A stretch of DNA of 64,000 nt from Actinocorallia populi (GTDB lineage Bacteria; Actinomycetota; Actinomycetes; Streptosporangiales; Streptosporangiaceae). Where the stretch lies: positions 1 to 64,000 of the forward strand of contig NZ_PVZV01000014.1 of NCBI RefSeq assembly GCF_002995495.1. Reading direction: 5' to 3'. A model generated the notes under the pieces. It worked only from the letters and a program-made list of their open reading frames with translations, made no database searches and was not told the origin of the DNA. Positions 25,310 to 47,083 of this stretch are shown piece by piece. Position 1 is the stretch's first letter. The number at the start of each line of letters is the position of its first letter. The position numbers were made by a program, and so were the translations under genes.

Positions 25310-26053
25310 TCAGTGGTCGCGCAGGAGGCTTCCGGCGCCCTCGACGCGGTCGGTGATGCCGTTCTCGCGCAGCGCCATCCACCAGGTGGCGGCGTTGATG
25401 GCGATGGTGGGCAGGCCCAGCCAGCGCTCGGCCTCGTCGGCCAGGCCGACCATGGACAGGTTGGTGCCGCACTGGATCAGCGCGTCCACCTCGCCCTCGG
25501 CGAGCTCGCGCAGCGCGCCGCGCAGCTCGTCCTCGGTGACGTGCGCGATGGAGACCGCGGTCGGGCACTTCAGGCCGATGATCTTGTCGACCTCGAAGCC
25601 CAGCTCGTTGAAGAACGTGCGCACGTTCGCGTCGCCGACCGGCTGGTAGGGGGTGACGACGCCGATGCGGCGCGCCCCGTACAGCTTCAGGGCCCGCTCG
25701 CACGCCTCGGCGCCGGTCGCCACCTGCAGGCCGGTCAGGTCGTGGATCTGCTTGACGAACGCCCGGTTGCCCTCGACGCCGCCCCAGAACGTCTCGGCGG
25801 ACATGCCCATGACCATGTAGTCGGGTTCGCAGGTCATGACCCGCTCGCAGGCCGCGCCGATCTCGTCGCGGATCTGCTCCAGCAGGCGCTCCATGCCCGC
25901 GTCGCCGGCCATGTTCTGGTCGCGGATGTGGATGCGGGAGAAGTGCGAGGTCACGCCGGGCACCGTCATGCGGTAGAAGTCGGGCTCGACGATGGTGTTG
26001 GTGGAGGGGGCGATCACGCCGAACTTGCGGCGCCAGCCCAGCGCGTCGGTCAT
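25310..26053 (-). CDS. Asp/Glu-racemase-superfamily protein (maleate isomerase / arylmalonate decarboxylase type)
   Basis: 247 residues. GVIAPSTNTIVEPDF (residues ~12-26) matches the start of maleate cis-trans isomerases (NicE-like, which read GxIVPSSNT). The second active-site cysteine is present (C195 in LIQCGTNLS), but at the first cysteine position the sequence is MGMS (82-85). Maleate isomerase uses both cysteines, while arylmalonate decarboxylase uses only the second, so decarboxylation or a one-cysteine isomerisation fits better. It is the last gene of the eight-gene operon, coupled to the previous one by ATGA, with AGGAG upstream. Possible substrates are maleate-like or beta-keto-acid fragments of pigment breakdown; this is inference. 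Confidence 0.82.
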   Translation of the reverse strand: MTDALGWRRKFGVIAPSTNTIVEPDFYRMTVPGVTSHFSRIHIRDQNMAGDAGMERLLEQIRDEIGAACERVMTCEPDYMVMGMSAETFWGGVEGNRAFVKQIHDLTGLQVATGAEACERALKLYGARRIGVVTPYQPVGDANVRTFFNELGFEVDKIIGLKCPTAVSIAHVTEDELRGALRELAEGEVDALIQCGTNLSMVGLADEAERWLGLPTIAINAATWWMALRENGITDRVEGAGSLLRDH

Positions 26054-26646
26054 GAGGGGATCTCCTGTCGTCTCTGTCGGTCCCGGAGGGTGGCGAGCCG
26101 CCAGGCGGCGAGGAGGAACATCCCCTGGCTGACGGTGTTGATGGACTGCTCGACCCACTGGCGGGCGATGGTCTGCTCGCCCGAGCTGAGCGGGCCGAGC
26201 GCGTACTGGCCGATGATCCAGACGATGAACAGCTTGTGCCTGCGGCTCAGGACGACCGCGGCGGCGGTGCTGGCCGCGATGGTGAGGATGAGCATCGGCA
26301 GGGTGTCGCCGATCGCGAAGGCGGTGCCCAGGCAGGCCATCCACAATCCGGCGATGGCGGGCACGGGCACGCGGGGCTCGATGGCCTTGAGGAGCACGAG
26401 GAAGCCCGCGGCCAGGAAGGGGAAGAGCGCCAGCGGCACCATCCACAGGTCGACGTGGGTGGTGGCGATGATGGTCTTCCAGCCGGCCTTGGCGACCCCG
26501 CCGATGCCCAGCAGCAGCGCCGCGATCCGGGCCAGCCGGGTGTCGACGCCGTCGACCCTGGCCAGGAGGAGCGCCCCGGCGGTGGTGAAGGCCACCGGGA
26601 CGAAGTCCTCCAGGGCCAGGACGAGGGGGTACTCTTCGGGGCTCAC
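26050..26646 (-). CDS. Integral membrane protein of the pigment-catabolism-like operon
   Basis: A 198-residue protein with about six hydrophobic segments (residues ~8-30, ~36-55, ~68-86, ~95-118, ~121-140, ~168-186) and a charged C-terminus. The start is a GTG overlapping the upstream stop (GTGA), and its own stop overlaps the next ATG. No known transporter motif is visible. Position in the operon suggests a membrane component for uptake, electron supply or sensing, but I cannot name a family. Confidence 0.75.
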   Translation of the reverse strand: MSPEEYPLVLALEDFVPVAFTTAGALLLARVDGVDTRLARIAALLLGIGGVAKAGWKTIIATTHVDLWMVPLALFPFLAAGFLVLLKAIEPRVPVPAIAGLWMACLGTAFAIGDTLPMLILTIAASTAAAVVLSRRHKLFIVWIIGQYALGPLSSGEQTIARQWVEQSINTVSQGMFLLAAWRLATLRDRQRRQEIPS

Positions 26647-27395
26647 GAGAACAGGTCCCGCTTGCTGAAGCCCGCCGTGGCGAACCGGAACGCGATCTTC
26701 GGCCCGGTCAGCCAGGCGACGCGCCCGCCGTTCTTGACGCCCTTGAGGATGCCCTCGGCCAGGAACGGGGTGACCGTCTCGACCTTGTCGGCGAGGATGT
26801 TGAAGATCTTCTTGGCCTTCTCCAGCTCCTCGGGCGTGTACTCCTGGACCAGCAGGTCGGTGACGACCATGCCGGGGGAGAGGTGCGCGGCCCTGACCGG
26901 GGTGCCCTTCAGCTCCTTGGCCAGCCCGTCCGTCACGTAGGTGACGCCCCGCTTGGTGGCGCCGTAGGCGACGAGTCCCGGCATGGTGCGCCCGTCGCTG
27001 CCGAAGCCCTCCATGTTCCAGACCGTGCCGGAGCCCTGCTCGAGCATGTGCCGGGCCGCGACGGCGCTGCCGTTGAGCACGCCGAGCAGGTTGGCCGCGA
27101 CGACCGTCTCGATCTGCTCGGCGGGCAGCTCGGTGAGCGGCTTGCGCGCGGTGGAGACACCGGCGTTGTTGACCCAGTGGGCGACCGTGCCGAGCGAGGC
27201 GGCCTTCTCCCACAGCGCCTCGACCTGGGCGCGGTCGGTCATGTCGCAGACGACGCCGGTCGCGCCGAGCTCGGCGGCGGCCTCGTCGACACCGCTCCGC
27301 CCGCAGATGACGACCCGCGCGCCGCGCGCGCCGAGCTCCTTGGCGAGCCCGCGGCCGATGCCGCGGGTCCCGCCGGTCACCACGATCACCGCCAT
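26643..27395 (-). CDS. NOL/NYC1-like short-chain dehydrogenase
   Basis: A 250-residue SDR. TGGTRGIGRG (residues 7-16) binds NAD(P), NNAG is at 76-79, and YGATK (Y144, K148) is the catalytic pair. Between them the usual SSxxG motif is replaced by NMEGFGSDGR. The combination N-[IM]-[DE]-G-x-GSDGR, then YGATKR, then LSPGM-V-TDLL is what plant chlorophyll b reductases (NOL, NYC1) show, and it is rare among bacterial SDRs. I infer reduction of a formyl or keto group on a tetrapyrrole or pigment fragment. The start overlaps the stop of the preceding gene by 10 bp. Confidence 0.85.
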   Translation of the reverse strand: MAVIVVTGGTRGIGRGLAKELGARGARVVICGRSGVDEAAAELGATGVVCDMTDRAQVEALWEKAASLGTVAHWVNNAGVSTARKPLTELPAEQIETVVAANLLGVLNGSAVAARHMLEQGSGTVWNMEGFGSDGRTMPGLVAYGATKRGVTYVTDGLAKELKGTPVRAAHLSPGMVVTDLLVQEYTPEELEKAKKIFNILADKVETVTPFLAEGILKGVKNGGRVAWLTGPKIAFRFATAGFSKRDLFS

Positions 27396-28309
27396 GTGAG
27401 CACCCCGTGGACGACGCCCGACAACGTGTTGCCGTCGAACACCTCGTAGGTGACGGCGAGGGTCTCGCCCGCGTTCATGCCCGGCGTCGCGTCGATCATG
27501 AACTCACGCCCCTTGATCTTGGTGACGGCGGCGCCGGTCGAGAAGTGCACGCTCGTGAAGTTCGCCCGGCCGAACGCCTGCGCGTTGCCCCAGGCTTCCG
27601 GGCCCTCGTAGAACATCCGTGTCCCGTCGCGCCGCTGCTCGACGGTGGAGGACCGCTCGAGCGCGCCGGACCAGGTGACGTGCGCGCGGGTGCGCAGCAG
27701 GTCGATCGGCTCCAGCTCCAGCGTGACGGTGACCTCGCCGACCAGCTTCTGGTCGGCGCCCCACAGCTCGCAGACGCCCTCGTACCCGCCGGCCTTCTTC
27801 GTCGGCAGGATGAACGGCACCGGCCCGTTGCGGGTCTCGGCCTCCAGGAAGTCCAGCGGCGGCTCCTCCCGGCGCTTGTAGACGCCGTTGAAGCAGCCGA
27901 CGACCGTCCAGCCCTGGTAGAGGACCGAGGAGTACACCTGGGTCTCGCCGTCGGGCAGGTTGTGGTTCCAGGTGTTGAGGTCGACCTGCCAGCCCGGCCC
28001 GTAGTAGTGGGCGTCGACGAACGCGCCGTACGGCTGGCCCGTCCCGTAGAAGTCCGGGCCGGTGTAGACGCGGTCGCTGTCGGAGTCGACGACCCCGAAC
28101 GCGAACGGGGCGCCGAGCCGGAACCGCCCGGCCAGCTCGCCGCCGCCCTCCAGGCCGCCGTCCATGTAGTACGTGGTCCTGCCGTCCTCGAACACCGACG
28201 AGCGCCGGATGTCCTCGTAACCGCACCAGACGCCCCTGGCGTCGAACAGGGAGGGGCGGCCGTGCCACTCGCCGGCGATGCGGCTCTGCCATTCGCTGGG
28301 CTCGCTCAT
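27386..28309 (-). CDS. Lipocalin-like (DUF3598-resembling) two-barrel protein
   Basis: A 307-residue, mostly beta protein without signal peptide or membrane helix. The opening IAGEWHGRPSLFDARG has the G-x-W-x-G start of lipocalin-fold proteins (DUF3598 and CpcT/CpcS-like bilin lyases of phototrophs are similar). A second GxYEGxCELWGAD-type strand set begins near 185, suggesting two barrels. Many Trp/Tyr residues line the strands. A pigment-binding or carrier role would fit the operon, but this is inference from fold-like pattern and context. It is coupled by ATGA to the previous gene. Confidence 0.65.
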   Translation of the reverse strand: MSEPSEWQSRIAGEWHGRPSLFDARGVWCGYEDIRRSSVFEDGRTTYYMDGGLEGGGELAGRFRLGAPFAFGVVDSDSDRVYTGPDFYGTGQPYGAFVDAHYYGPGWQVDLNTWNHNLPDGETQVYSSVLYQGWTVVGCFNGVYKRREEPPLDFLEAETRNGPVPFILPTKKAGGYEGVCELWGADQKLVGEVTVTLELEPIDLLRTRAHVTWSGALERSSTVEQRRDGTRMFYEGPEAWGNAQAFGRANFTSVHFSTGAAVTKIKGREFMIDATPGMNAGETLAVTYEVFDGNTLSGVVHGVLTWR

Positions 28310-29031
28310 GCCTGGACCTCGTTCGAGATCAGCTCGGCGCGCAGCCTGTCGGAGGTCTCCCGGCCGACGAGGCGGGTGACCCGCTCCCAGACCGGGTCGA
28401 CCTCGGGGCTGAACAGGTTCTCCCGGTTGGCGCGGTCGCGGGCGGCCAGGTCGGTGTCGGCCAGGGTCGCCAGGACCTCCTGCGGCAGGCCGGACTCCAG
28501 CAGCGCCGACCAGTGCGCGAAGTAGTCGTCCACGAACGTGTCGAACGCCTTGAACTGCTCCTCGTCGGCGCGGTTCACCAGCATCCAGGGCGACATCATC
28601 GCGTACTGGCGCGGGCCGATCGCGGCGCGCAGCGAGCCGAAGACCTCCTTGGAGCGCTCGAAGACCGGGCTGAGCGGCTCGAAGACGGTGTTCACGTAGG
28701 CCAGGTGGGAGGCCAGCTCGGCGCGCGGGACGAGGTCGAGGTGGAAGGCGAGGTTGCCGCCGGCCTCGACGGAGTCCAGGGTGAAGTGCGGAATCGCCGA
28801 GCCGTCCGGGGAGAACGCGAAGATCATGTGGCTGTCCATGCCGATCTGCGGCACGACCAGGCTGATCGTCACGACCTTGGCGATCCGGCTGCCGGTGCGC
28901 ACCTCGAGCCGGCCGACGGGGTCGGGGCCCATCGTGCTGAACAGGTCCTCGCCGTGGACGAGCTTGAGCTCCTCCACGCCCTCGAGCTTGGCGAGGGTAC
29001 GGTCGAACAGGCCCTTGGGCAGTGAGGTCAT
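28306..29031 (-). CDS. Possible ferredoxin-dependent bilin-reductase-fold protein
   Basis: 241 residues, cytoplasmic. The segment PHFTLDSVEAGGNLAFHLDLVP (residues ~82-103; key parts P-F-x-x-D and DLVP) recalls the core strands of bilin reductases (P-x-x-G-x-D ... iDlxP). The later SPWMLVNRADEEQF followed by a helix DDYFAHWSALLE recalls the SPxxLF-R ... F-x-x-Y-x-x-W region of that family. Similarity is weak, so I rank this as a candidate second FDBR/RCCR-superfamily member beside the clearer one at 31.2-32.0 kb. It overlaps both neighbours by ATGA and is certainly part of the operon. Confidence 0.6.
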   Translation of the reverse strand: MTSLPKGLFDRTLAKLEGVEELKLVHGEDLFSTMGPDPVGRLEVRTGSRIAKVVTISLVVPQIGMDSHMIFAFSPDGSAIPHFTLDSVEAGGNLAFHLDLVPRAELASHLAYVNTVFEPLSPVFERSKEVFGSLRAAIGPRQYAMMSPWMLVNRADEEQFKAFDTFVDDYFAHWSALLESGLPQEVLATLADTDLAARDRANRENLFSPEVDPVWERVTRLVGRETSDRLRAELISNEVQA

Positions 29032-30269
29032 GACTGCTCTTCCTTGTCTGCTGCGGGGGTCTCGGCGGTCTCGGCGGCCTTGGCGGCGGCGCGCTCGGCC
29101 TCGCCCTTGAGGATGGAGTCGTCGACCCGGGGGTGCTCGCCCCGGGCCTTGTGCACCCAGGCGCGGGCCAGCTCGGGGTTGTTCCTGCGGGCGGGCGAGG
29201 GGATGACGGTGGCCTCGCGGCGCGGGACGTCGCCCATGATGCGGTCCTCGTCGCCGAGCATCCAGCCCTTGTCGGCCAGCTCCTGGCGGCGGCGGCGGTA
29301 GTGCACCGCGATGAGGTCGGACTTGACGTGCAGTTCGGCGGCGAGGTCGGCGGGCAGCAGCTCGGGCCGGGTGCCGTCCACGACGGGGACGTCCTGGTCG
29401 AAGATGCCGTAGATGCGTTTGAGGGCGTTCTTGTCGGCCCAGTCACCGGTGAAGAAGTCGCGCAGCGCCACGAACTTCACCAGCGTGGTGGTCTCGTCGA
29501 TCGGCACGTTGCTGTCGTAGATGATGATGTTGCCCATGGGCAGCCGCACGTGCAGCTTGATCATGTTCGGCAGCATCCAGCCCGCGCTGGTCTCGACCGG
29601 CGGGCGGTCCTTCAGGTCCCGGCTCTTGCCCGACAGCCGTCCCCACAGGCCCTTGGCCTGCGGCGGGTAGAGCTTGACGGTCGCGAACGCCGACCACTCG
29701 TCGGGCGTCTCGACCTCGTACTCCTCCACCTCGGGCCGCTCGGGGTTGCCGAACCGGCCGCCGTGGACGAACGGGGTGTGCGCGATGTCGCAGCCGTTCT
29801 CCAGGATGCGCTCGTAGTTGGAGTTCCAGAGGTACTCGCCGTAGACCGGCTTCCAGCGGCCGCCGTTCTTCTTCAGGTCGTCGAACTCGGGCCAGTGGGG
29901 GATCGGGGGACGGTCCTCCTCGGCCAGGTCGCCCATGAAGACCCACACGAAGCCGTACTTCTCGGTGGTCGGGTAGGAGTCGACGCGTGCCTTCTTCGGC
30001 ATGCCCCGGCCTTCCAGGTTGGCCGGGATCTTCACGCAGGTGCCGTCGGGCACGAACTCCCAGCCGTGGTAGGGGCAGACCATCTTGTCGTCCTTGACCC
30101 AGCCGCCGGACAACGCCGCGCCGCGGTGCGGGCACAGGTCCGACATGCAGACGACGGCGCCGTCGCGTTTCCGGTACAGGACGAAGTCCTGCCCCAGGCA
30201 CGTGATCTTCTTGGGTTTGCCGGTGACCTGGTCGGACGTCTCGACCGCGTACCAGAAGTTCTTCAGCAT
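29028..30269 (-). CDS. PaO-like Rieske non-heme iron oxygenase
   Basis: 413 residues. The Rieske [2Fe-2S] ligands are C46-x-H48 (CPHRG) and C65-x2-H68 (CPYHGW). The mononuclear iron site is in NGCDIAHTPFVHGG, with D161, H164 and H169. The stretch after the cluster, GTCVKIPANLEGRGMPKKA, parallels G-KCVKIPQ-x-KIPKAA of pheophorbide a oxygenase, and the C-terminal half lacks the ring-hydroxylating dioxygenase alpha-subunit signature. PaO opens the chlorin macrocycle with O2 and reduced ferredoxin. Here the C-terminus (~360-413) is a charged Ala/Glu-rich tail without a membrane anchor. No reductase or ferredoxin gene is adjacent. Its start shares a base with the hydrolase stop (TGATG). Confidence 0.88.
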   Translation of the reverse strand: MLKNFWYAVETSDQVTGKPKKITCLGQDFVLYRKRDGAVVCMSDLCPHRGAALSGGWVKDDKMVCPYHGWEFVPDGTCVKIPANLEGRGMPKKARVDSYPTTEKYGFVWVFMGDLAEEDRPPIPHWPEFDDLKKNGGRWKPVYGEYLWNSNYERILENGCDIAHTPFVHGGRFGNPERPEVEEYEVETPDEWSAFATVKLYPPQAKGLWGRLSGKSRDLKDRPPVETSAGWMLPNMIKLHVRLPMGNIIIYDSNVPIDETTTLVKFVALRDFFTGDWADKNALKRIYGIFDQDVPVVDGTRPELLPADLAAELHVKSDLIAVHYRRRRQELADKGWMLGDEDRIMGDVPRREATVIPSPARRNNPELARAWVHKARGEHPRVDDSILKGEAERAAAKAAETAETPAADKEEQS

Positions 30270-31216
30270 CAGTGCTCCCGCAGTGACACGGAGGGAGGCG
30301 GGTTCTTCCGCACGTTCTCCAGGGGATCGGGGTCGCCGTTCAGCCGCGCGCTCAGGAAGGCCAGCAGCACTTCCAGGTAGGCGGCGCGGCTCTCGGCGGG
30401 GTCGCGTTCGGGTTCCAGGTCCAGGAAGGCCCGCGCGGCGGTCGGGTCCACGGGGTCCGCGACCGCGAAGTGGTTGGCGCCGTCGAGGACGGCGAACAGG
30501 TGGCCCTCACCGGGCAGCGCCTCGTCGAAGGTCCTGCTGACGGGATCGGTGAAGCCGTCCTGGCCGTACCGGTCGCTGCTGCCCAGGATGACCCCGTCGC
30601 GGGTGCCGACGGCCAGGAACACCGGGCAGTCGACCTGGGCGGGCAGCACGGTGCCGGCGGGCCAGCCGAGCATGGTGGCGACCATGGTGTGGGTGCCGAA
30701 CCCGAAGGCGGCCCGCACGCCGGGGAAGAAGCGCGCGGACTGCAGCACGACGGTCCCGCCCGCGGAGTGGCCGCCGAGGGCGACGCGGTCGAGGTCCAGC
30801 GCGTCCTTCAGCAGGTCGATCCCGCGCAGCGCGTCGAGGATCGCCGGGACGGTGGGGCAGGTCGGCCGGGTACCGTACGCGCCGGGCTTGGCCGCCTCCA
30901 GGTCGACCCCGGGGGTCAGCCCGTACTGGCCGCCGAACAGTTCGGCCACCCGGTCGAAGGTCACCACGACGTATCCGGCTTCGGCGATCGCGACGGCCAG
31001 GGTCCGGTAGGAGTCCTGGGCGACGTTGACGCCGGAGAAGAAGAGCACGACGGGGTGCTTTCCGGGTGCCGGAGGGAAGACGCCGGTGAGGCGCTCGGCG
31101 TCGGTGCCCTCGGCGAGGGCGGGGTAGTAGACCTTGAGGTGGGCGGTGTCGAACGGCGGTTCGCCGTGCGTGCGGGCCGACCACCACAGGGAGCGGATCA
31201 AAGGAGGGTTCGTCAC
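30269..31216 (-). CDS. Chlorophyllase-like alpha/beta hydrolase
   Basis: A 315-residue hydrolase. The nucleophile elbow is GHSAGG (S151). Oxyanion-side strand VVLFFSGVN (~57-65), an acid in LAVGTRD and the histidine of GANHF complete the triad. The layout (short N-terminus, FFSGVNVAQDSYRTLAVAIAEAGY-type strand/helix, then GHSxGG) is that of chlorophyllase/PETase-like esterases. Plant chlorophyllase removes the phytol ester; here an ester of the pigment or its 13-carboxymethyl group could be the target. The start is a GTG overlapping the RCCR-like stop (GTGA). Not exported. Confidence 0.82.
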   Translation of the reverse strand: MTNPPLIRSLWWSARTHGEPPFDTAHLKVYYPALAEGTDAERLTGVFPPAPGKHPVVLFFSGVNVAQDSYRTLAVAIAEAGYVVVTFDRVAELFGGQYGLTPGVDLEAAKPGAYGTRPTCPTVPAILDALRGIDLLKDALDLDRVALGGHSAGGTVVLQSARFFPGVRAAFGFGTHTMVATMLGWPAGTVLPAQVDCPVFLAVGTRDGVILGSSDRYGQDGFTDPVSRTFDEALPGEGHLFAVLDGANHFAVADPVDPTAARAFLDLEPERDPAESRAAYLEVLLAFLSARLNGDPDPLENVRKNPPPSVSLREH

Positions 31217-32016
31217 GGGCGCGGCAGTTCCCGGTCGCCGCCCCACAGGGCGCGGACGAGCTTGCCGGTGAGCTCCTCGCCGAAGAACCGCACGCCCATG
31301 GAGTTGGCGGGGTCGCGTTCGGCGATGTTGCGCCGGATGGTCAGGTCGGTGTCGCGCTGCGCCTCGCGCTCGGCCTCCGGCACCGCCTCGGCCTCGTCGA
31401 CCCAGCCGAGCCAGCGGTCGACGTGGGCGTGCATCCAGTCGTTGACGGCCTGGAAGTTCTCCTCCGACCACTTGAAGGAGTAGCACTGGGCGGTGGGGGA
31501 GAGGCTGGTGCGGATGAACGCCGACGGGCTGGTGAACCACTCGAAGTCCGGGTGGTCGGCCTGGAACTTCAGCCAGTCCTCGTTGACGGGCGCGTAGTAG
31601 TCGTCGTAGTAGTCGGCGTCGATGACGAGGCTGGTGCGCGGCACCGAGTCGCAGTAGAACCAGCCCTCGGGCCACAGCAGCAGGGCGATGCCCAGGTGGG
31701 GGACGCGCACCTGCGGGCCGAGCCAGACGGTCAGGTGCAGGTTGACGAAGCTGGCGGCGGGGTTGCCGAGCCAGGAGTGCACCATCCAGTCGACCTCGGG
31801 GCCGCTGTAGGCGGCGACCTTGCCGCCGGGACCGTCCGGGTAGGTGCCGTAGGACTCCAGCTCGAGCGTGGAGGGGTCGCGGGTGGTCTCGAACCGGGCG
31901 TCGATCTTCGCCTTCAGTTCCTCGAGCAGGCGCTGGTACTTCCCGAACGCTTCCGTCACGTCGACGACGGGCGAACTGTCGAGCATCTGTTCGACGTTCC
32001 GGATGGTCTCAGTCAT
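31213..32016 (-). CDS. Red chlorophyll catabolite reductase (RCCR)-like protein
   Basis: A 267-residue protein, first gene of the eight-gene operon. Three separate blocks match plant RCCR: D-x-PRTSLVIDADYYDDYY (residues ~123-141; plant DLPHRKDLV-x3-DYL-x-EYY), SPSAFIRTSLSPTA (163-176; plant SPSLFVRSAFSPTA), and RDTDLTIRRNIAERD ... FFGEEL near 221-249 (plant RRDKSFRRKSIEDD ... MFGEEV). RCCR, a ferredoxin-dependent bilin-reductase relative, reduces the C20/C1 double bond of the linear tetrapyrrole made by PaO. Bacterial enzymes of this family next to a PaO-like gene are not, to my knowledge, characterised. An operator of the local regulon lies 15 bp upstream of the ATG. Confidence 0.88.
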   Translation of the reverse strand: MTETIRNVEQMLDSSPVVDVTEAFGKYQRLLEELKAKIDARFETTRDPSTLELESYGTYPDGPGGKVAAYSGPEVDWMVHSWLGNPAASFVNLHLTVWLGPQVRVPHLGIALLLWPEGWFYCDSVPRTSLVIDADYYDDYYAPVNEDWLKFQADHPDFEWFTSPSAFIRTSLSPTAQCYSFKWSEENFQAVNDWMHAHVDRWLGWVDEAEAVPEAEREAQRDTDLTIRRNIAERDPANSMGVRFFGEELTGKLVRALWGGDRELPRP

Positions 32017-32031: not shown

Positions 32032-32056
32032 GGTTCGCTGGGGGAAACGCTGTTTC
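32032..32056 (-). promoter_or_regulatory. Composite IclR-type operator, site A (RCCR/PaO-like operon)
   Basis: GGTTC-N7-GAAAC-N3-GTTTC on the plus strand (14 of 15 half-site bases match the consensus). It includes the perfect palindrome GGAAACGCTGTTTCC at 32043-32057. It ends 15 bp before the RCCR-like ATG, placing it over the promoter/start of the operon. Confidence 0.85.
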
Positions 32057-32097
32057 CATTTTTCGATCCGGAGGTCCGGCTGTCAACGGGTACGCCG

Positions 32098-33711
32098 TCA
32101 CGGTGCGGTCTCCACCAGCGAGCCCAGGGTCCGCCAGGCCCGCCCGTTGACCAGGTCGGTGTTCTTGGACACGAACCGGTTGACGGCCTGGGCGGGGTGC
32201 ACGGCGCCCGTGGTGAGCCCGGGGCCCGCCTCGGTGACGAGCGGGTGGCTGATCCGGCCGGTGAAGGGCCCCTCCCAGGCGGTCCAGAGGGTGAAGTCGC
32301 CGGTGAGGTCGAGGATGAGGCCGCCCTCGGCCCAGGCCGAGACGATGTTCAGCCGGTTCTCCGCGGCCCGCTCGGGCAGCCCGAGGGAGGTCTCCCAGGA
32401 CTCGCCCGCGCTGCGCGGCACCGCCACCACGTCGGCGTCGGCGATCGCGGCCAGCCGGAAGGTCTCCACCGACACCGAGTCGTCGCCGACCACCACCGCG
32501 AGCCGACCGAAGGGCAGTTCGAGGACGGCCACCCCCTCGCCCGTCCGGACGGCCCAGGGGTGGCGGCCGGTGCGGTGCAGCTGGAGCTGGACGCCGGCCT
32601 CGCCCCCGGCCGAGACCACCAGGCCGGCGTGGGCGTCGCCGTCGCGGACGCTGGTGACGGCGTACGCGGCGGTCCCGGACAGCGCCTTGGCCAGCAGTTC
32701 GGTGACCTCGGCGCGGTCCGCCGCGCCGAAGGCCAGCTCGGGCAGGACGATCAGCTCGGCGCCGGCCGCGGCGGCCTCGGCCGTCCCGGGCAGCGGGTCG
32801 GCGTCGGCCACGACCGCGACCCGGCACGCGTCGGCTCCGGGGGGCGCGGTGCGCTCCACCGGGACGGAGGCGATCGGCCGGTAGAGCTCGGGGCGGCGCG
32901 CGGCGAGGATGTCGGTGCCGTCCGGCCGCGTCTTCACGTCGGCCAGGGAGAGGTCGATGTCGGCGACGACCACGGCCTCGCCGGTGCGCGGCCCCTTGGC
33001 CACGACGGTGCCGTCCGGGGCGACGATCTGGCTCTCCCCGGCGCCGTGCACCTGCTCCGGCGGCACGCCCAGCCGTTCGGCGATGGCCGGGGTGAGCGCC
33101 TCGGGCAGCAGCGGGCCGACCTTGTTGGCGGCGACCACCCACACCTTGTTCTCCGCCGCGCGCACCGGGATGTGCAGGCTCGCCTCGTCGGTGGCGAAGG
33201 AGTTCAGGCTGTTGAGCAGCAGCTGGGCCCCGCGCAGGGTGAGGTCCCGGCAGACGTCGGAGGTGACGCCCTCCATGCACGCGTACAGCCCGATCCGGCC
33301 GAGCGGGGTGTCGATGACGGGGCCGCGCTCGGTGCCGGGGTCCATGTGGTCGCCCTCGGCGCCCATCAGGGTGAGCTTGTCGGCCTGGCCGAGCAGGCTC
33401 CCGTCCGGCCCGTACAGCAGGCTGGTGATCGTGGTGCGGCCGTCCTCGCGGGCCACGGTGACGTTGAGCTTCACGTACGCCCCGTGCCGGGCGGCACGCC
33501 CGGCGACGGCGCCGAGGAATCCGCCGTCCAGGGTGCAGGCCAGCCGGTGCGCGGTCTCCCGGTCGGGGTACCAGGACAGGTGGTTGCAGAACTCCGGCAG
33601 GACGACCAGCTCGGCACCGGCGGCGGCTGCCTCGTCGATCATCCGCAGGCAGGTGGCGAGGTTGACCGCGAGGTCCTCGCCCGCCGCGAACTGTACCGCT
33701 GCGACCCGCAT
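32098..33711 (-). CDS. Tandem nitrilase-superfamily hydrolase with an inactive second domain
   Basis: 537 residues in two carbon-nitrogen-hydrolase domains. The first keeps Glu40 (LPEF), Lys112 (QADKLT) and the nucleophile Cys145 (GLYACMEG). The second (from ~275) keeps the Glu (VLPEL) but has no catalytic Lys or Cys (VVVGDDS at the cysteine position), so it is probably structural. Such enzymes hydrolyse nitriles, amides or N-carbamoyl groups. The ATG at 33711 has AGGAGG 8 nt upstream and is preferred to the ATG two codons earlier. Operator site B lies 15 bp upstream. In the island it could open amide or imide fragments released from pyrrole rings. Confidence 0.86.
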   Translation of the reverse strand: MRVAAVQFAAGEDLAVNLATCLRMIDEAAAAGAELVVLPEFCNHLSWYPDRETAHRLACTLDGGFLGAVAGRAARHGAYVKLNVTVAREDGRTTITSLLYGPDGSLLGQADKLTLMGAEGDHMDPGTERGPVIDTPLGRIGLYACMEGVTSDVCRDLTLRGAQLLLNSLNSFATDEASLHIPVRAAENKVWVVAANKVGPLLPEALTPAIAERLGVPPEQVHGAGESQIVAPDGTVVAKGPRTGEAVVVADIDLSLADVKTRPDGTDILAARRPELYRPIASVPVERTAPPGADACRVAVVADADPLPGTAEAAAAGAELIVLPELAFGAADRAEVTELLAKALSGTAAYAVTSVRDGDAHAGLVVSAGGEAGVQLQLHRTGRHPWAVRTGEGVAVLELPFGRLAVVVGDDSVSVETFRLAAIADADVVAVPRSAGESWETSLGLPERAAENRLNIVSAWAEGGLILDLTGDFTLWTAWEGPFTGRISHPLVTEAGPGLTTGAVHPAQAVNRFVSKNTDLVNGRAWRTLGSLVETAP

Positions 33712-33726
33712 CTTCATGGCCTCCTG

Positions 33727-33751
33727 GTTACCTCTAGCGAAACGCTGTTTC
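33727..33751. promoter_or_regulatory. Composite IclR-type operator, site B (nitrilase / Dabb divergent promoter)
   Basis: GTTAC-N7-GAAAC-N3-GTTTC (14 of 15 matches), with the same GCT centre as site A. It lies 15 bp from the nitrilase start and 57 bp from the divergent Dabb start, so it could control both. Confidence 0.85.
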
Positions 33752-33808
33752 CAAAACATACAATCAGGGCCGCTGGATGGGAAGAGATTTCACACCTGGA
33801 GAGCCACC

Positions 33809-34084
33809 TTGCTGACCCACGTCGTTCTGATGAAGTTCACCGACCCCGCCGACGCCCCCGAGGCCAAGGAGAGGCTGGAGGCGCTCGTGCCGCTGATCGG
33901 GCAGATCCGCGGCATGACCGTGGGCCTGGACGCGGTGCGCGGGGAGGTCTCCTGGGACCTGGCTCTGATCACCGAGCACACGGACCTCGACGGGCTGCGC
34001 GGCTACCAGCGGCACCCCGAGCATCTGAAGGCGGCGGGCTGGCTGCGTGAGCGCCTGGCCGCCCGGGCCTCGGTCGACTTCTGA
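33809..34084 (+). CDS. Dabb-domain (stress-responsive A/B barrel) protein
   Basis: A 91-residue dimeric alpha+beta barrel. LTHVVLMKFTDPADAPEAKE (strand-helix) at the start and DLALITEHTDLDGLRGYQRHPEH in the second half are Dabb signatures. Dabb proteins include olivetolic-acid cyclase-like and heme/pigment-binding relatives, plus small-molecule tautomerases or cyclases. It probably starts at the TTG at 33809 behind TGGAGAG. It shares operator site B with the nitrilase and ends before a strong terminator. Confidence 0.82.
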   Translation: MLTHVVLMKFTDPADAPEAKERLEALVPLIGQIRGMTVGLDAVRGEVSWDLALITEHTDLDGLRGYQRHPEHLKAAGWLRERLAARASVDF

Positions 34085-34246: not shown

Positions 34247-35656
34247 CTATCCGGGGTAGGCGGCCGCGGCCATGCCGCCGCCTCCGGCGCGGAAGGCCGC
34301 GGGAGCGTGCACCGAGCAGGTCTGGGCGTACTCCAGGATGCCCTCGTCGCCGTACTCGCGGCCGTGGCCGCTGCGCTTGACCCCGCCGAACGGCGCCCGC
34401 AGCGCCATCCCGGTGCGGCCGTGCGTGTTGACGAAGGTGAAACCGGCCTCGAAGCGGCGGGCGAAGTCGAACGCCCGGTCCTCGTCGGCCGACCAGACCG
34501 AGGCGCCCAGGCCCAGTTCGCCCGCGTTGGCGCGGGCCAGGACCTCCTCGGTGGTGGAGTAGGCCAGCAGCGGCACCACCGGGCCGAACTGCTCGTCCGC
34601 CACGACGGGCGAGGAGTCGTCCAGGCCGGTCAGCAGCGTGGGCCGGACGTAGTGCCCCCGCTCGAGGTCGCAGGCGACGCGGCCGAGCGGCACGGGCTCG
34701 CCGCCGGAGGCGATCAGCGCCCGGATCCGCTCCGCCGCGCCCGCGGTGATCACGGGTCCGACGGTCGTCTCCTCGTCCAACGGGTCGCCCAGCACGACGA
34801 CGCGCCGGGCCGCCGCCGTGAAGGCGTCCCGGAACTCCGCCTCGCGCCCGGCGGGGACGTAGAGCCGTTTGGCGGCCATGCAGACCTGCCCCGACGTCTG
34901 GAAGCAGCCCATCACCAGCCGGTCCATCGCGTCGTCGGTGAACTCGGCGTCCGGCAGGAGCACCGCGGGGTCGTTGCCGCCCAGCTCCAGCACCGCCGGG
35001 GTGATCATCCGCCCGGCGAGGGCGCCGATCGCCCGGCCCGCGCCCTCGCCCCCGGTGAAGGCGACCTTGCGCACCAGCGGGTGGCCGACCAGCGCGGCGC
35101 CCGTCCCGGCCTCCCCGTGGACCACCCGCACGAGCCCGTCACCGAAGCGGCCCAGCAGCTCCGAGACGGCCAGCGGGGCCAGCGGCGACGGCTTGACCAC
35201 GACGGTGTTGCCCGCGGCCAGCGCCGGTCCGACCTTGAGCATCGCCAGGATCACCGGCGCGTTCCACGGGGTGATCGCCGCGACCGCCCCGTACGGGCGC
35301 CGCCGCAGCAGCAGCCGGCCGGCGGCGTCGTCGGTCTCCACGTCGGCCAGCACCTCGGGGGCGCGGTCGGCGACCCAGTTCAGGAAGACCCCGGAGAACC
35401 GGAGCTCCCCCCGGCAGTCGCCGACCGGTTTGCCGCTCTCCCGGGCCAGCAGCACGGCGAGGTCTTCGTCGTCGAAGGTCGCGGACGCCTCCCGCAGCAC
35501 CCGCACCCGCTCGGCGAGCGGGGTCCGCGCCCAGGAGCGCTGCGCCGCGTCCGCGGCCCGGACGGCCTCGTCGACGTCGGGGGCGTCCGCGACGGGAACC
35601 CGCCCGACCAGCTCACCGAGCCGGGCGGGGTTCTCCCGGTCGAGCCAGGCGCTCAT
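34247..35656 (-). CDS. NAD(P)-dependent aldehyde dehydrogenase 1
   Basis: 469 residues, classical ALDH superfamily. The cofactor region is ITPWNAP (~128-134), the general base is E224 (LELGGNDP) and the nucleophile is C259 (SGQVCMA); PFGGVKRSGHGRE near the end is the oligomerisation motif. It oxidises an aldehyde to an acid in the cytoplasm, probably the last gene of the operon starting at 40832. It overlaps the FAD monooxygenase by ATGA. The substrate is unknown; succinate-semialdehyde-type enzymes are closest in pattern. Confidence 0.92.
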   Translation of the reverse strand: MSAWLDRENPARLGELVGRVPVADAPDVDEAVRAADAAQRSWARTPLAERVRVLREASATFDDEDLAVLLARESGKPVGDCRGELRFSGVFLNWVADRAPEVLADVETDDAAGRLLLRRRPYGAVAAITPWNAPVILAMLKVGPALAAGNTVVVKPSPLAPLAVSELLGRFGDGLVRVVHGEAGTGAALVGHPLVRKVAFTGGEGAGRAIGALAGRMITPAVLELGGNDPAVLLPDAEFTDDAMDRLVMGCFQTSGQVCMAAKRLYVPAGREAEFRDAFTAAARRVVVLGDPLDEETTVGPVITAGAAERIRALIASGGEPVPLGRVACDLERGHYVRPTLLTGLDDSSPVVADEQFGPVVPLLAYSTTEEVLARANAGELGLGASVWSADEDRAFDFARRFEAGFTFVNTHGRTGMALRAPFGGVKRSGHGREYGDEGILEYAQTCSVHAPAAFRAGGGGMAAAAYPG

Positions 35657-36786
35657 CCCGCCCTCCCGGGCTCCGGGGTGCGCAGCGAGGCGATCATCGA
35701 GGTCCGCAGCAGGTGCGCGCGGGCCTTGACGGGGTCGGCGGCCAGCGCGCGCAGTCCGGCCTTGTGGGCCTCGGGGTCGCGCAGCTGCTCCCAGTTGGCG
35801 TGGGTGATCTTCTGCACGAACGAGGCGGCGACCTCCCGGCGGCGTTCACACGCCAGATCCAGGGCCGCGTCGTCGCCGAACGCGGCGGCGACGGCGACCG
35901 CGTCGTGGATGCCGCTGTTGAGGCCCATGCCGCCGAGCGGGTTGTTGACGTGGGCGGCGTCGCCCACCAGCACCACCCGTCCGGCGCGGAACCGGGCGGC
36001 GACCCGCTGGTGCACCCGGTAGAGGGTGGAGTGCGCGACCTTCCACCCGACGTCGACGACACCGCGCAGCCGCTCGGGCAGCCGCGCCGTCTCCGCCTCG
36101 TCGGGGGTGCCGTCCGGGGTCGGGAACAGCACCCGCCAGTGGTCGGGCGTGCGCAGCAGGACCAGCCATTCCTCGGGGTCGAAGACATAGTTGACCGCGG
36201 CGATGCCGGGGATCAGCGTCTCCAGCTCCTCCTCGGTGGAGGCGACGAGGAACCGCTCGGGATAGGTGATGCCCTCGAACGGCACGCCCAGCTCCTTGCG
36301 GACCCGCGAGTGCGCGCCGTCCGCGCCGATCAGCCGGTCGCCCCGGTGGACGGTGCCGTCCGCGGTGGTCACCGAGACGCCCGCCCCGTCCTGGACGACG
36401 CCGGTGACCGCCGAGCCGAAGACGACCTCGCCGCCGTCGGCCCGCAGCAGCTCCAGCAGGATCGGCGTGAGCTTGCTCTGCTCGCACTGCACCCGGTACG
36501 GGTACGGCGTGTCGTTCTCCAGCAGCCGCAGGTCGAGTTCGGCGACGACGCCGCCCCTGCGCTCGCGGTACTGGAAGGTGTGCGAGACCAGGCCCCTGGC
36601 CATCAGCGCGTCCAGCGCGCCGAGTTCGGCCAGCATCTCCAGCGTCGGCGGATGGTAGGTCGAGGCGCGGGACTCGGCGGCCAGTCCTTCGCCGGCCTCC
36701 AGCACCCGCACCTCGAAGCCGCGGCGGGCCAGCGCCACCGCGGCGGCCAGCCCGACCGGGCCCGCCCCGGCGACCAGGACGCGCAT
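35653..36786 (-). CDS. FAD-dependent monooxygenase (PHBH/UbiH class)
   Basis: 377 residues. The N-terminal Rossmann motif VAGAGPVGLAAAVALARRG binds FAD; DRLIGADGAHSRVRKELG is the DG motif; GDAAHVNNPLGGMGLNSGIHDA is the GD motif. Class A flavoprotein monooxygenases hydroxylate aromatic or activated ring carbons with NAD(P)H and O2. It shares one base with the upstream ALDH stop (TGATG) and ATGA with the downstream ALDH. In this island it would attack ring fragments. Confidence 0.92.
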   Translation of the reverse strand: MRVLVAGAGPVGLAAAVALARRGFEVRVLEAGEGLAAESRASTYHPPTLEMLAELGALDALMARGLVSHTFQYRERRGGVVAELDLRLLENDTPYPYRVQCEQSKLTPILLELLRADGGEVVFGSAVTGVVQDGAGVSVTTADGTVHRGDRLIGADGAHSRVRKELGVPFEGITYPERFLVASTEEELETLIPGIAAVNYVFDPEEWLVLLRTPDHWRVLFPTPDGTPDEAETARLPERLRGVVDVGWKVAHSTLYRVHQRVAARFRAGRVVLVGDAAHVNNPLGGMGLNSGIHDAVAVAAAFGDDAALDLACERRREVAASFVQKITHANWEQLRDPEAHKAGLRALAADPVKARAHLLRTSMIASLRTPEPGRAG

Positions 36787-38243
36787 CACGCCTCCCTGGA
36801 GTGCAGGGCGAAGCCGTTCTCGACGCCGACGACCCGGGGGTTGGTGAAGAAGCGCAGCGTCTCGGCGGTGCCCTCCTCGCCCAGTCCCGAGTGGCCCCAG
36901 GCGGGGCGCGGGGCGAACAGGTGCAGGCTCATGATGCTCGAGCCGTTCACCTTCACCTCGCCCGCGCGGATCCGCCGCGCGACGGACAGGGCCTGCTCCT
37001 CGTCGGCGCCGAAAACGTACGCCTCGAGCCCGTAGGCGGTGCCGTTGGCCAGCGCCACGGCCTCGTCGAGGGAGGTGTAGGGGTGGACGGTCGCGACGGG
37101 GCCGAAGATCTCCTCCACGGCCTCCTCCGCCGGGACGCCGGTGACCAGTGCCGGAGCCAGGTGGTTGGTGCCCCCGGGCAGCGCCGTGCCGGTGTGCACG
37201 ATGCCGCCGAGCGCGTCCCGCTGGGAGATGACGAGCTCCCGGTGCCGGGAGTGGATCAGCGGCCCGTAGTCGGTGTCCTCCGACAGCGGATCGCCGGCCC
37301 GCAGGGCGCCCAGGCGCGCGACGACCGCGGCGACGAGCTCCTCCTCCCGCCCCGCCGGGACGATGAGCCTGCCGAGCGCCCGGCACCACTGGCCGTTGAG
37401 CGTGGTCAGCAGGTCGACGACGCCGCGGGCGGCCGCCTCGACGCCGGCGTCGGGCAGCACCACCATCGGGTTGTTGCCGCCCAGCTCGAGCTGGGCGGGC
37501 TTGTGCCCGGTGGCGCAGGCGGCGGCGATGGCCTGCCCGCCCCTGGCGCCGCCGGTGAAGGAGACCGCGCGCACCCGCGGGTCGTTGACCATGGTGCCGC
37601 CGACACCGGGGCCGCCGTGCAGGAACTGGAAGACGCCGTCGGGGACGCCCTGGGCGCGCAGCGCCTCGGCGATCACCTCCGACATCAGCTGGCTGCCGTA
37701 GGGCGCGTACTCGCTGGCCTTGAACAGGGCGGGGCAGCCCGCGGCCAGCGCGTTGGCGATCTTGTGCGCGCCGGTGGGCGCGGGCGCGTTCCAGGCGGTC
37801 AGGCACAGTGCCGGGCCCCAGGGCAGCAGGTGCACCTCGGTGGTGTTGCCGTCCTCGCGCTCCAGGGTGCGCGTCAGCCACCCCTCGCGCAGCTGGCCGG
37901 CGGCGAGCAGGAACGAACCGGTGACGATCATGCCGAGCGGCAGGGTCTGCCGGATGGGCACGCCGGTCGCGAACGACTCCAGCGCGGCGATCTCGGCGAC
38001 CCTCGGCTCGAGCGCCGCGGCGACGGCCTCCAGGATCCGGGCGCGTTCGGCCACCGGGGTCGCGGCCCACGGCCCGGCCGCCGCGTCGGCGGCGGCCAGC
38101 GCCCGCTCGACCCGCTCGGGCGAGCTGGCGGCGGCGGGAGCCAGGGGCTCGCCGGTGGCGGGGTTCTCCAGGACCAGGTCGAGGACGTCGCCGGCGGGCT
38201 CCCACGTCCCTGCGACGAGGTCGCGGGGTTCGGGCGTCTTCAC
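36786..38243 (-). CDS. NAD(P)-dependent aldehyde dehydrogenase 2
   Basis: 485 residues, ALDH superfamily, with E254 (LELGGNNP) and C287 (NGQWCRA). WGPALCLTAWNAP forms the cofactor pocket. It resembles benzaldehyde/vanillin-type dehydrogenases more than ALDH 1 does. The start is a GTG overlapping the stop of the acyl-CoA-dehydrogenase-fold gene (GTGA). A second ALDH in the same operon suggests a dialdehyde or two-step aldehyde route. Confidence 0.91.
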   Translation of the reverse strand: MKTPEPRDLVAGTWEPAGDVLDLVLENPATGEPLAPAAASSPERVERALAAADAAAGPWAATPVAERARILEAVAAALEPRVAEIAALESFATGVPIRQTLPLGMIVTGSFLLAAGQLREGWLTRTLEREDGNTTEVHLLPWGPALCLTAWNAPAPTGAHKIANALAAGCPALFKASEYAPYGSQLMSEVIAEALRAQGVPDGVFQFLHGGPGVGGTMVNDPRVRAVSFTGGARGGQAIAAACATGHKPAQLELGGNNPMVVLPDAGVEAAARGVVDLLTTLNGQWCRALGRLIVPAGREEELVAAVVARLGALRAGDPLSEDTDYGPLIHSRHRELVISQRDALGGIVHTGTALPGGTNHLAPALVTGVPAEEAVEEIFGPVATVHPYTSLDEAVALANGTAYGLEAYVFGADEEQALSVARRIRAGEVKVNGSSIMSLHLFAPRPAWGHSGLGEEGTAETLRFFTNPRVVGVENGFALHSREA

Positions 38244-39508
38244 GACTTCACGCTCGCGAACAGCTCGTTCTCCTTGTCCTGGGTGATCATGGAGGCGGCC
38301 TCCAGTCTGCCGCGCTCGGCGGGGAAGGTCATGACCAGCGCCATGGCCAGGTCGCGCAGGGTGCGGCCGATGACGCCGTCCATGGTCGCCGCGGAGGTGC
38401 CGCACGCCTTGAGCGCGCCGAGCGCGACCTGGAAGCAGGCCTCGGAGATGTCGCCCTTGGCGATGCGCCACTGCTTGTAGACCTCGGGCTTGGGCAGCAG
38501 CGGCGGTTCGGAGGTCTCCAGCTCGATCTGCCGCCTGATCCACAGGTAGGCGGTCTCCAGGCGCTCGGCCATGTCGCCGATGATGACCTGGTGCATGGGC
38601 GAGCTGGCGATGGTCCTGCCGGAGTCGGCGAAGGTCCTGCCGGTGGTGCGCTCCAGCGCGTAGTCGTAGACGTTCTGGGCGGCGCCCAGGTAGACGGCCA
38701 TGATGGCCAGCTGGTTGCCGACGAAGCTGCCGCGGCTCATCTGCAGCATCTTCACGAAGGAGCCCGGCACGGTGAGGGAGTCCTCGGCGGGGACGAACAC
38801 GTTCTCCATGACGATGCCGTCGTTGGCCGAGGCGCGCATGCCCAGGCCGTTCCACCTGGGCCGGTTGGTGATGCCCGCGTAGTCGCGGCCGACCAGGAAC
38901 AGCGCCAGGCCGTCGGCGTTCTCGGTGCCGTCGACCTTGGCGGTGACCAGGTAGTAGTCGGCGACGCCGGTGGCGCAGCCGAAGGACTTGACGCCGCTCA
39001 GCGACCAGCCGCCCTCGGCCGGGGTGGCGACGGTGGCGATGGCGATGTTGGCGCTGGAGCTCTTGACCTCCTCGGAGGCGAAGTTGGCCAGCCAGGTGCC
39101 CCCGGCCATCCTGGTGAGCAGCCGCCGCGCGAAGGCGTCGATGACCGGGACCTCCTCCGCGGAGAACAATCCGGCCTCGATGGCCTCCAGCGGCAGCAGG
39201 CCGCGGGAGGCGCTGGTGTTGTGGAAGAAGTAGGCCAGCGCGGTGGACGGGCAGGCCGAGCCGAGGGTGAAGGTCGCCCCGGCCAGGTCGCGCAGCCCGC
39301 CGCCCAGGCCGCCGAACTCCTCGGGGATGATGAGGCCGAGGAGCCCGGCCTCGCGCATCAGGGCGATGTGGCCGACGGGGAACTCCCCGGTCTCGTCGGC
39401 CTTGGCCGCGGCCTCCCGCAGCGCGGGCAGGACGGACTCCACCTTCTCCATCCGGGCGCGCTCGGCGTCGGTGAGCTTGGTCAGCAGCCGTTCGGCGATC
39501 AGTGTCAT
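38240..39508 (-). CDS. Acyl-CoA-dehydrogenase-fold flavoprotein, possibly a two-component monooxygenase
   Basis: 422 residues with the ACAD N-terminal, beta-barrel and C-terminal helical domains (PEEFGGLGGGL, SGVKSFGCATG, GLGMRASANDG). The region that normally carries the catalytic glutamate (YEGTSxIQ) reads FPAERGRLEAAS, so it lacks the standard dehydrogenase base. ACAD-fold proteins without that residue are often group-D flavin monooxygenases (HsaA, DszC type) that take FMNH2 from a partner. The gene just upstream is a flavin reductase, which fits. 124 bp with a GC-rich hairpin separate them. The start is ATG 39508. Confidence 0.83.
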   Translation of the reverse strand: MTLIAERLLTKLTDAERARMEKVESVLPALREAAAKADETGEFPVGHIALMREAGLLGLIIPEEFGGLGGGLRDLAGATFTLGSACPSTALAYFFHNTSASRGLLPLEAIEAGLFSAEEVPVIDAFARRLLTRMAGGTWLANFASEEVKSSSANIAIATVATPAEGGWSLSGVKSFGCATGVADYYLVTAKVDGTENADGLALFLVGRDYAGITNRPRWNGLGMRASANDGIVMENVFVPAEDSLTVPGSFVKMLQMSRGSFVGNQLAIMAVYLGAAQNVYDYALERTTGRTFADSGRTIASSPMHQVIIGDMAERLETAYLWIRRQIELETSEPPLLPKPEVYKQWRIAKGDISEACFQVALGALKACGTSAATMDGVIGRTLRDLAMALVMTFPAERGRLEAASMITQDKENELFASVKS

Positions 39509-45512: not shown

Positions 45513-45561
45513 GTCCAGGGACGGTATCCCGAGTTTCGCGCGAAAGGGAAACAAAGGACCG

Positions 45562-45585: not shown

Positions 45586-45641
45586 GTCCCGGGCGGTCTT
45601 GACAGGGGCGCTTCTGGGACGGTTCTCTAAAGCGCAGTTGT

Positions 45642-45666: not shown

Positions 45667-45682
45667 AGACGGAGTTCAACCC

Positions 45683-47002: not shown

Positions 47003-47024
47003 CCCCTCCGGCAATCCCCGTACC

Positions 47025-47079: not shown

Positions 47080-47083
47080 CCAC

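Follow-up and report, generated by a model that had tools for sequence, protein, structure and literature searches.

The first 64,000 nucleotides of Actinocorallia populi contig NZ_PVZV01000014.1 (hereafter, the window) carry an operon of eight minus-strand genes (A to H, 25310..32016) which, together with a gene set upstream of it, forms a conserved, operator-linked catabolic regulon built on two proteins of predicted bilin-reductase fold. We consider it probable that this regulon breaks down an imported tetrapyrrole, probably derived from chlorophyll, as a nutrient. The original prediction for this DNA had read the eight genes as a bacterial parallel of chlorophyll breakdown in plants, and taken literally this analogy is half right: the coupled operon and the membership of A in the red chlorophyll catabolite (RCC) reductase family stand, and the proposed four orthologs of plant-pathway enzymes, judged from their sequences, do not. 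The genes of the operon are as follows.

A, 31213..32016, minus strand: RCC-reductase family protein of 267 amino acids (PF06405), predicted bilin/RCC-type reductase
B, 30269..31216, minus strand: alpha/beta hydrolase (chlorophyllase-, platelet-activating factor acetylhydrolase (PAF-AH)- or dienelactone hydrolase (DLH)-like) with a conserved GHSAGG
C, 29028..30269, minus strand: VanA-type Rieske oxygenase, PF00355 and PF19112 over cut-off
D, 28306..29031, minus strand: second protein of predicted RCCR/FDBR fold, Asp86 and Asp212 standing in the FDBR/RCCR acidic columns
E, 27386..28309, minus strand: predicted DUF3598-like double beta-barrel (fold match), possible pigment carrier
F, 26643..27395, minus strand: short-chain dehydrogenase (SDR), PF00106 133.8 bits, Y144 and K148 kept
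G, 26050..26646, minus strand: small, variable membrane protein, no Pfam or NCBIfam match
H, 25310..26053, minus strand: arylmalonate decarboxylase (AMDase)/EutA-type protein, PF17645 69.4 bits against a cut-off of 25.9, with Gly83 and Cys195

Two proteins of predicted bilin-reductase fold encoded in one coupled operon

The eight open reading frames lie where they had been placed, with A at one end and H at the other, and consecutive genes overlap at every junction, as the original prediction had it: by 4 bp between A and B (GTGA, the GTG start of B being at 31216), by 1 bp between B and C (TGATG), by 4 bp at C/D, D/E, F/G and G/H, and by 10 bp at E/F, for an overall range of 1 to 10 bp. Codon-usage calling recovered the same genes, except that the start of B fell 15 bp further in, at 31201. 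The predicted extent was right as to the eight genes and too narrow in its coordinates, since the upstream stretch 32098-41791 recurs together with A-H in other genomes.

Protein A matched PF06405, as predicted, with 56.6 bits over a cut-off of 24.9 (E 2.9e-15), its residues 29-257 covering model positions 4-251. A single-sequence search of the PDB returned Arabidopsis RCCR (E 4.3e-9), and a profile of 19 A sequences found RCCR at 4.4e-17 and Guillardia PEBB (GtPEBB) at 1.8e-8; the C-terminal ERDPAN-MG-RFFGEE of A is also similar to that of PEBB, EKDPARGMFTRMYGPE. Asp235 of A aligns with Asp291 of Arabidopsis RCCR, whose residue numbering was fixed by the F218V entry. We found 347 relatives of A and, among the 120 matches listed, those with names were mostly called oxidoreductase or hypothetical protein, with P0004 and P0034 named red chlorophyll catabolite reductase. 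A search of 296 genomes of the phylum with a divergent A copy gave only 2 genomes besides that of the host, and the named relatives of this copy include the PF06405 proteins P0182, P0186, P0229 and P0172 of Parahaliea, Litorivivens, Halioglobus and Temperatibacter, which are proteobacteria. Neither A nor an A paralog matched any of 72,556 plasmid records, which gives no sign of a plasmid origin.

The guess that 28306-29031 (D) encodes a bilin-reductase fold was supported by profiles and by a confident predicted structure, which place this fold over the whole chain. In chained alignments with A, PEBB and RCCR, Asp86 and Asp212 of D fall in the central-Asp column (Asp105 of PcyA) and the C-terminal-Asp column, respectively; Asp86 is invariant in a 10-row alignment of D and Asp212 nearly so, and tomato HY2 has Asn at the central column. 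D scores below the PF05996 cut-off (18.3 bits against 31) and belongs to a family that numbers at least 1,674 members; none of the 120 listed among them carries a Pfam domain, and the D of Actinocorallia libanotica (P0252) is 93% identical. For E, the predicted structure matched DUF3598/BFA1, and further structure matches were weaker and mostly confined to the second barrel; PF12204 (DUF3598) itself matched neither E nor anything else on the contig of the window at E<=10.

Protein C passed both Pfam models of VanA-type oxygenases and keeps the Rieske ligands C46/H48/C65/H68 as well as N158/D161/H164/H169, which hold the 2-His-1-Asp site. Its closest relative in the PDB is SxtDIOX (5.7e-32) and, in NCBIfam, a methylsterol monooxygenase model (118.5 bits, far below the cut-off of 600). 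The original prediction had taken C for a relative of pheophorbide a oxygenase (PaO), and it had named two findings that would speak against it, no PF06405 match on A and no PaO affinity of C; only the latter was observed, in that C has no PF08417 match at E<=1. A search of 15 carrier genomes for PF08417 at E<=0.1 gave nothing in 14, and the sole match, on host contig C6 (G000:C6:323964-324209, L133; 28.5 bits against a cut-off of 27), is a Rieske oxygenase gene adjoining a reductase gene and an IclR gene. From the DNA we read this Rieske gene and the reductase gene as a putative VanA/VanB-type pair, and because such a gene scores just above the cut-off, the PF08417 model is not strictly specific.

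Of the remaining proteins, B had been called chlorophyllase-like. The PF07224 model does pass (29.2 bits against 26), and so do the PAF-AH model PF03403 (27.4 against 20) and the DLH model PF01738 (26.1 against 21); Ser146 and His244 are conserved (numbering of the 310-residue model), and the best solved relatives are polyethylene terephthalate (PET) hydrolases (E 4e-4). F, which had been named NOL/NYC1-like, came out as a generic SDR with all Pfam and NCBIfam models tried, and no NOL/NYC1 model came up in either library; its possible tie to NOL is an NMDG-like motif. G occurs in 50 of the 80 loci described below plus the window by clustering, and in only 8 of 80 by tblastn. For H, announced as a maleate-isomerase/AMDase-type protein, the AMDase half of the claim holds: PF17645 passes, Gly83 is present in 80 of 80 models and Cys195 in 72, the eight models lacking Cys195 being second copies in Nocardia loci, and we assume that these two residues have the catalytic roles of the AMDase Gly and Cys columns. 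The maleate isomerase half was rejected, since H has Gly196 at the column that holds Cys or Ala in 4fq7/4fq5 and 2xec/2xed.

Conservation of the operon across genomes

Conservation was followed in 80 loci (L013-L092), the best 80 of 187 A relatives with one genome per species scanned, a choice by which distant clusters are under-represented. They come from Actinoplanes, Catellatospora, Micromonospora, Dactylosporangium, Nonomuraea, Streptosporangium, Actinomadura, Nocardia, Streptomyces and others, and the gene clustering took in these 80 loci together with the genes between 22 and 56 kb of the window. Downstream of A we found D in 78 loci, C in 77, B in 76, E in 76, F in 78 and H in 77, and A-B-C-D-E-F-H are colinear in 73, which bears out the claim that their association is more than chance; in L050 C and E have moved, and L055 is cut by a contig end. 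Residue conservation was scored after removal of short gene models, which kept 74 of 75 models for A, 69 of 73 for B, 75 of 76 for C, 64 of 70 for D, 76 of 77 for E, 58 of 74 for F, 80 of 90 for H and 68 of 75 for the upstream gene I. Independently of the picking by A, separate searches of a sample of 394 genomes of the class with D and with A each found 15 genomes, and these were the same 15.

Beyond the 80 loci, the gene content varies around a stable core. In L111 (G362) the order is O-N-M-X-L-K-A-B-C-D-E-F-G-H, the letters I to W denoting upstream genes listed in the next section and X a phosphoenolpyruvate (PEP)-mutase/methylisocitrate-lyase-like gene whose best PDB matches, close to one another, are carboxyvinyl-carboxyphosphonate phosphorylmutase (1e-46), methylisocitrate lyase (2.1e-42) and 2,3-dimethylmalate lyase (3.2e-41). 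L108 (G428) holds this gene set as a single run preceded by I, and a divergent A copy is found in a neighbouring stretch of G362 (L110), along with S, R, V and genes for an IclR protein and a CoA transferase. The 2 further genomes of the phylum sample, which are outside the class (L131, L132), keep the order A-C-D-E, so that an RCCR-family protein, a VanA-type Rieske oxygenase, a second predicted bilin-reductase fold and an E-type barrel persist there as a core; L131 also has IclR, CoA transferase and MmgE/PrpD genes and part of I, and L132 has I, HMGL, CoA transferase and H.

One family of genomes of 1.0-1.7 Mb (G068, G095, G145, G158) shows as many as five D matches and four A matches, not all of the latter complete, spread over split clusters (L093, L095, L097, L098, L112-L116); in two kinds of these clusters A is joined to a Rieske gene. 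As a separate observation, such copy numbers are a heavy investment for a genome of this size.

A palindrome marks the upstream genes and distant host loci

The genes upstream of the operon, and the sites of an operator-like palindrome among them, are listed below, with counts referring to the 80 loci, many of whose stretches end before K-P.

Palindrome TGGAAACAGCGTTTCC, 32043..32058, minus strand: upstream of A, abutting a promoter-like TTGACA-17-AAAAAT (32086-32058)
I, 32098..33717, minus strand: nitrilase-superfamily amidohydrolase (CN_hydrolase), directly upstream of A, PF00795 149.5 bits
Same palindrome, 33738..33753, minus strand: upstream of I, as in 74 of 74 evaluable loci
J, 33794..34084, plus strand: divergent Dabb (stress-responsive A/B barrel) protein, PF07876, 51 loci
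K, 34247..35656, minus strand: aldehyde dehydrogenase, PF00171 402 bits, matched in 70 loci (K and M can cross-match)
L, 35653..36789, minus strand: FAD-dependent monooxygenase, PF01494 174 bits, 65 loci
M, 36786..38243, minus strand: aldehyde dehydrogenase, PF00171 349.7 bits, matched in 70 loci (as for K)
N, 38240..39508, minus strand: acyl-CoA-dehydrogenase-fold protein, possible flavin monooxygenase component, PF08028/PF02771/PF02770, 50 loci
O, 39633..40832, minus strand: flavin reductase, PF01613 145.2 bits, 28 loci
P, 41051..41791, plus strand: IclR-family regulator, PF01614 and PF09339, 28 loci
R, 42506..43903, minus strand: MmgE/PrpD family protein, possible lower-pathway hydratase/dehydratase, PF03972 and PF19305
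S, 43914..44714, minus strand: PF04199 cyclase (kynurenine-formamidase-like amidohydrolase), 96 bits
Surface block, 44844..52034: sortase, weak WxL-like/WxL-interacting-like proteins and three neocarzinostatin-family proteins, palindrome at 45641
U, 52105..53310, minus strand: DUF4437 cupin, PF14499 207.8 bits, matches in 21 loci
V, 53317..54735, minus strand: AMP-dependent CoA ligase, PF00501 285.5 bits, 8 loci, palindrome upstream at 54828
W, 54880..55434, minus strand: isochorismatase-family amidohydrolase, PF00857 128.7 bits, 4 loci, palindrome upstream at 55564

The palindrome has the form TGGAAAC-AGC-GTTTCC and stands upstream of A, I, S (44757, with 2 mismatches), the surface block, V and W; a seventh place (42238, 3 mismatches) lies inside gene Q and not before a gene. 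Counting both strands, the window has 12 palindrome rows at these 7 places against 1.23 expected, and none of 100 shuffles reached as many. The pattern was derived from the window itself, and tests were made elsewhere. A site with at most 2 mismatches lies within 150 bases upstream of I in all 74 evaluable loci, compared to about 1.6% of random stretches, and a site with at most 1 mismatch lies directly upstream of A in only 8 of 79; I and A are therefore probably one unit in most loci, the A site of the window being an extra one. I stands upstream of A in 76 of the 80 loci, with K114 and C147 conserved. Strict sites (GAAACNNNGTTTC) occur 149 times in the loci and window taken together (1.67 Mb), against none for the reversed pattern; the genes that they precede are I (60 of 75 gene models), J (26 of 33) and those of hydrolases predicted to be secreted (14 of 31), and 33 of the 149 are not near a called gene start. 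P is likely the regulator of the cluster.

The host genome (8.25 Mb) has 11 palindromic sites, 5 in the window and 6 elsewhere. Outside the window, one site is followed after about 53 bases by a hydrolase gene whose product has a signal-like start (PF07224 36.3 bits against 26, PF12740 54.9 against 28), another after about 15 bases by an H paralog with 53% identity, and a third after about 55 bases by a Rossmann protein that shares 38% identity with one next to a small-genome cluster. The fourth, at a distance of about 76 bases, precedes a protein with 47% identity over 150 residues to the product of the gene at 45716, which has a palindrome before it as well. The fifth, at about 33 bases, precedes a CoA ligase whose stretch includes an HMGL gene, and the site on C16 has nothing recognisable nearby. 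Additionally, host contig C10 has a second catabolic locus (L174:3928-10618) with isochorismatase, PEP-mutase/methylisocitrate-lyase-like, AMDase, nitrilase and FAD-monooxygenase genes, related to W, X, H, I and L, respectively. This locus would supply the lyase absent from the window; none of the strict palindromes found in the host is on C10.

What the regulon may degrade

A tetrapyrrole is our best reading of the substrate class, inferred from the genes. It is favoured because A, D and E each point to it and nearly always accompany C, and because the several amidohydrolases, the AMDase, the MmgE/PrpD protein and the methylisocitrate-lyase-like enzyme would suit alkylated C4 acids derived from maleimides. 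Under this reading, the pigment would be released and captured by chlorophyllase/PETase-like hydrolases, predicted to be secreted, and by neocarzinostatin-like proteins anchored at the surface, and the intracellular hydrolase B would remove an ester. C could then add oxygen to the macrocycle or to the chain once opened, a role that PaO or TIC55 have in plants, although C is not of the PaO family, and A and D would reduce the open-chain product at two different positions with electrons from ferredoxin, E holding the product. The flavin monooxygenases (N/O and L), the aldehyde dehydrogenases K and M and the SDR F might cut this product to monopyrrole lactams or maleimides, whose C-N bonds I, W and S would open, and H, R, the PEP-mutase/methylisocitrate-lyase-like enzyme and CoA enzymes would feed the resulting alkylated C4 acids to central metabolism. 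P would act on the palindrome to switch the regulon.

More tentatively, and with rather less confidence than in the substrate class, the regulon may amount to a complete bacterial pathway from environmental chlorophyll, or its pheophorbide or phyllobilin products, to central metabolites under one operator. It would run from secreted dephytylating esterases and surface chromophore-binding proteins through a VanA-type Rieske attack on the ring, two bilin-type reductions by a new RCCR/FDBR branch and maleimide hydrolysis to retro-aldol/Claisen cleavage of alkylated C4 acids, and these bacteria could also be the reservoir from which the RCCR family came.

A number of observations weigh against degradation of a tetrapyrrole or against parts of the scheme. 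Ala111 of A stands at the column of RCCR Glu154, where PEBB has Asp; we presume from the RCCR literature the roles of Glu154 and Asp291 in the Arabidopsis enzyme. Because Ala111 replaces Glu154, A need not perform the RCCR reaction, and we claim family membership for it, from its sequence, and not RCCR catalysis. Asp212 is replaced by Asn in one D paralog, and since a subunit of the chloroplast Ycf2-FtsHi motor complex (8xqw_H, 8xks_P) has the same fold, the fold alone is no proof of a bilin enzyme. B and F belong, by sequence, to generic families, and C could not be assigned to PaO (no PF08417 at E<=1, PF19112 VanA_C at 92.4 bits instead). In L031 and L067, 2 of the 80 loci, A stands alone, and the trait is patchy, PF06405 being present in one of two genus-mates searched and not in the other. 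R and S were matched in none of the 80 locus stretches, neocarzinostatin-like relatives occur near A in a minority (14 and 8 other loci, 18 distinct), and no ferredoxin, ferredoxin reductase or dedicated importer is among the families found in the window cluster. The link between P and the palindrome is an inferred one.

Several of these points would fit a regulon that degrades some other nitrogen-containing aromatic or terpenoid, A, D and E having been turned to that substrate, which we regard as the less likely reading. C, L, N, O, K, M and F are of broad catabolic families, the nearest NCBIfam model of C is the methylsterol monooxygenase (below cut-off), and N and O score against HsaA and HsaB, among others; the missing acidic residue at Ala111 and the service of the fold outside bilin chemistry in the Ycf2-FtsHi complex point the same way. 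Such a substrate would leave hard to explain, without a linear tetrapyrrole, why two bilin-reductase-fold proteins and an E-type barrel travel together in nearly all loci (D in 78 and E in 76 of 80). D keeps both acidic columns, and the several kinds of amidohydrolase suggest a nitrogen-containing substrate, which a sterol is not. That plant-type orthologs of chlorophyllase, PaO, RCCR and NOL run the phyllobilin pathway here is very improbable: PF06405 on A, and PF07224 on B barely above its cut-off, agree with it, but C is VanA-type and lacks PF08417, 14 of 15 carriers have no PF08417 match and the host gene elsewhere reads as VanA/VanB-type, F is a generic SDR, and no relative of B or F lies in the 20-kb stretches L131 and L132.

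If the substrate is a tetrapyrrole, it could also be biliverdin made by the host's own heme oxygenase and reduced or modified for detoxification, iron recovery or use as a chromophore. PF01126 heme oxygenase is indeed found in 10 of the 15 carrier genomes searched, including the host (contig C3), but in all 10 it is away from the A locus. It was not found in the 5 small carrier genomes of family f7, the family with most copies of the system, with the limits that completeness is 100% for one and 60-93% for four and that the search covered canonical heme oxygenases, and this incompleteness counts against our preference for an imported pigment. Use as a nutrient is a better fit to the size of the catabolic set, to the predicted secreted hydrolases and to the palindrome regulon, and we judge an endogenous heme substrate improbable. 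We thus favour an imported pigment over endogenous biliverdin because of the five small carriers without PF01126 and because predicted secreted hydrolases share the palindrome, and we lean weakly to chlorophyll over heme because of the ester hydrolases.

Relation to known systems

Huge amounts of chlorophyll are formed and degraded, and in plants its breakdown proceeds through the PAO/phyllobilin pathway with PaO, RCCR, TIC55 and chlorophyllase/MES16. The operon resembles this pathway in its RCC-reductase family protein A, in the Rieske gene that accompanies A in the operon in 77 of 80 loci, and in its ester hydrolases. It differs in the VanA type of its Rieske protein, in the lack of a Glu154 equivalent in A, and in adding a second predicted bilin-reductase fold, a DUF3598-like barrel and ring-degrading catabolic genes. 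D shares its predicted fold and the central Asp column with the FDBRs (PcyA, PebA/PebB, HY2), to which A is related by profile. H is like the arylmalonate decarboxylase superfamily in its PF17645 match and in having Gly83 and Cys195 on the AMDase columns, and unlike maleate isomerase in its Gly at the second Cys column.

Among bacterial systems, pre-1 and pre-3 pre-PcyA clusters of heterotrophic bacteria contain heme oxygenase, V4R, Fe-S and globin genes, according to the sections of PMC10151467 consulted, whereas window genes A-P, R and S include no heme oxygenase, V4R or globin family. RCCR homologs, bacterial PF06405 proteins like A, are known in Nostoc and Anabaena (PMC2716323), for which the part of that paper available describes no such operon; the same part states that bacterial PaO relatives are generally without the PaO motif, and C is likewise. 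A geoporphyrin study (PMC8669743) names mono- and dioxygenases and maleimides and, in the portion consulted, shows no RCCR-type gene. In the open-licence literature, a scope outside which most subscription papers fall, we found no description of this cluster and no bacterial route that mineralises the chlorophyll ring. Many actinobacteria have the operon that combines A and D with C, and it would likely serve to digest chlorophyll- or heme-derived pigment, for which we found no bacterial route described in that literature. With its named genes, its operator and its culturable hosts, the operon makes bacterial mineralisation of the chlorophyll ring open to test, and the D family, as an added branch of at least 1,674 proteins in the superfamily that makes the phytochrome and phycobilisome pigments, bears on the origin of RCCR and the bilin reductases.

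Surface block and flanking genes

The surface block begins with a sortase (44844-45512, minus strand; PF04203 111.6 bits). Two of its three neocarzinostatin-family proteins (at 48130, 50800 and 51402) pass PF00960 with 43.6 and 32.2 bits over a cut-off of 25, and the one at 48130 falls below it (22.2). One of the two has an LPXTG-like end, with an LPXTG match just under its cut-off, and the WxL matches are below theirs as well. Neocarzinostatin proteins bind a chromophore, and the block is a possible pigment-capture device. Of the genes between P and the block, R has relatives near the cluster in L110 and L131, and S has one in L110.

Upstream of the operon, K-L-M-N overlap by 4 bases at each junction. 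The C-terminal stretch of O matches the HMGL-like family PF00682 (32.3 bits, E 9e-8), an unusual fusion for a flavin reductase.

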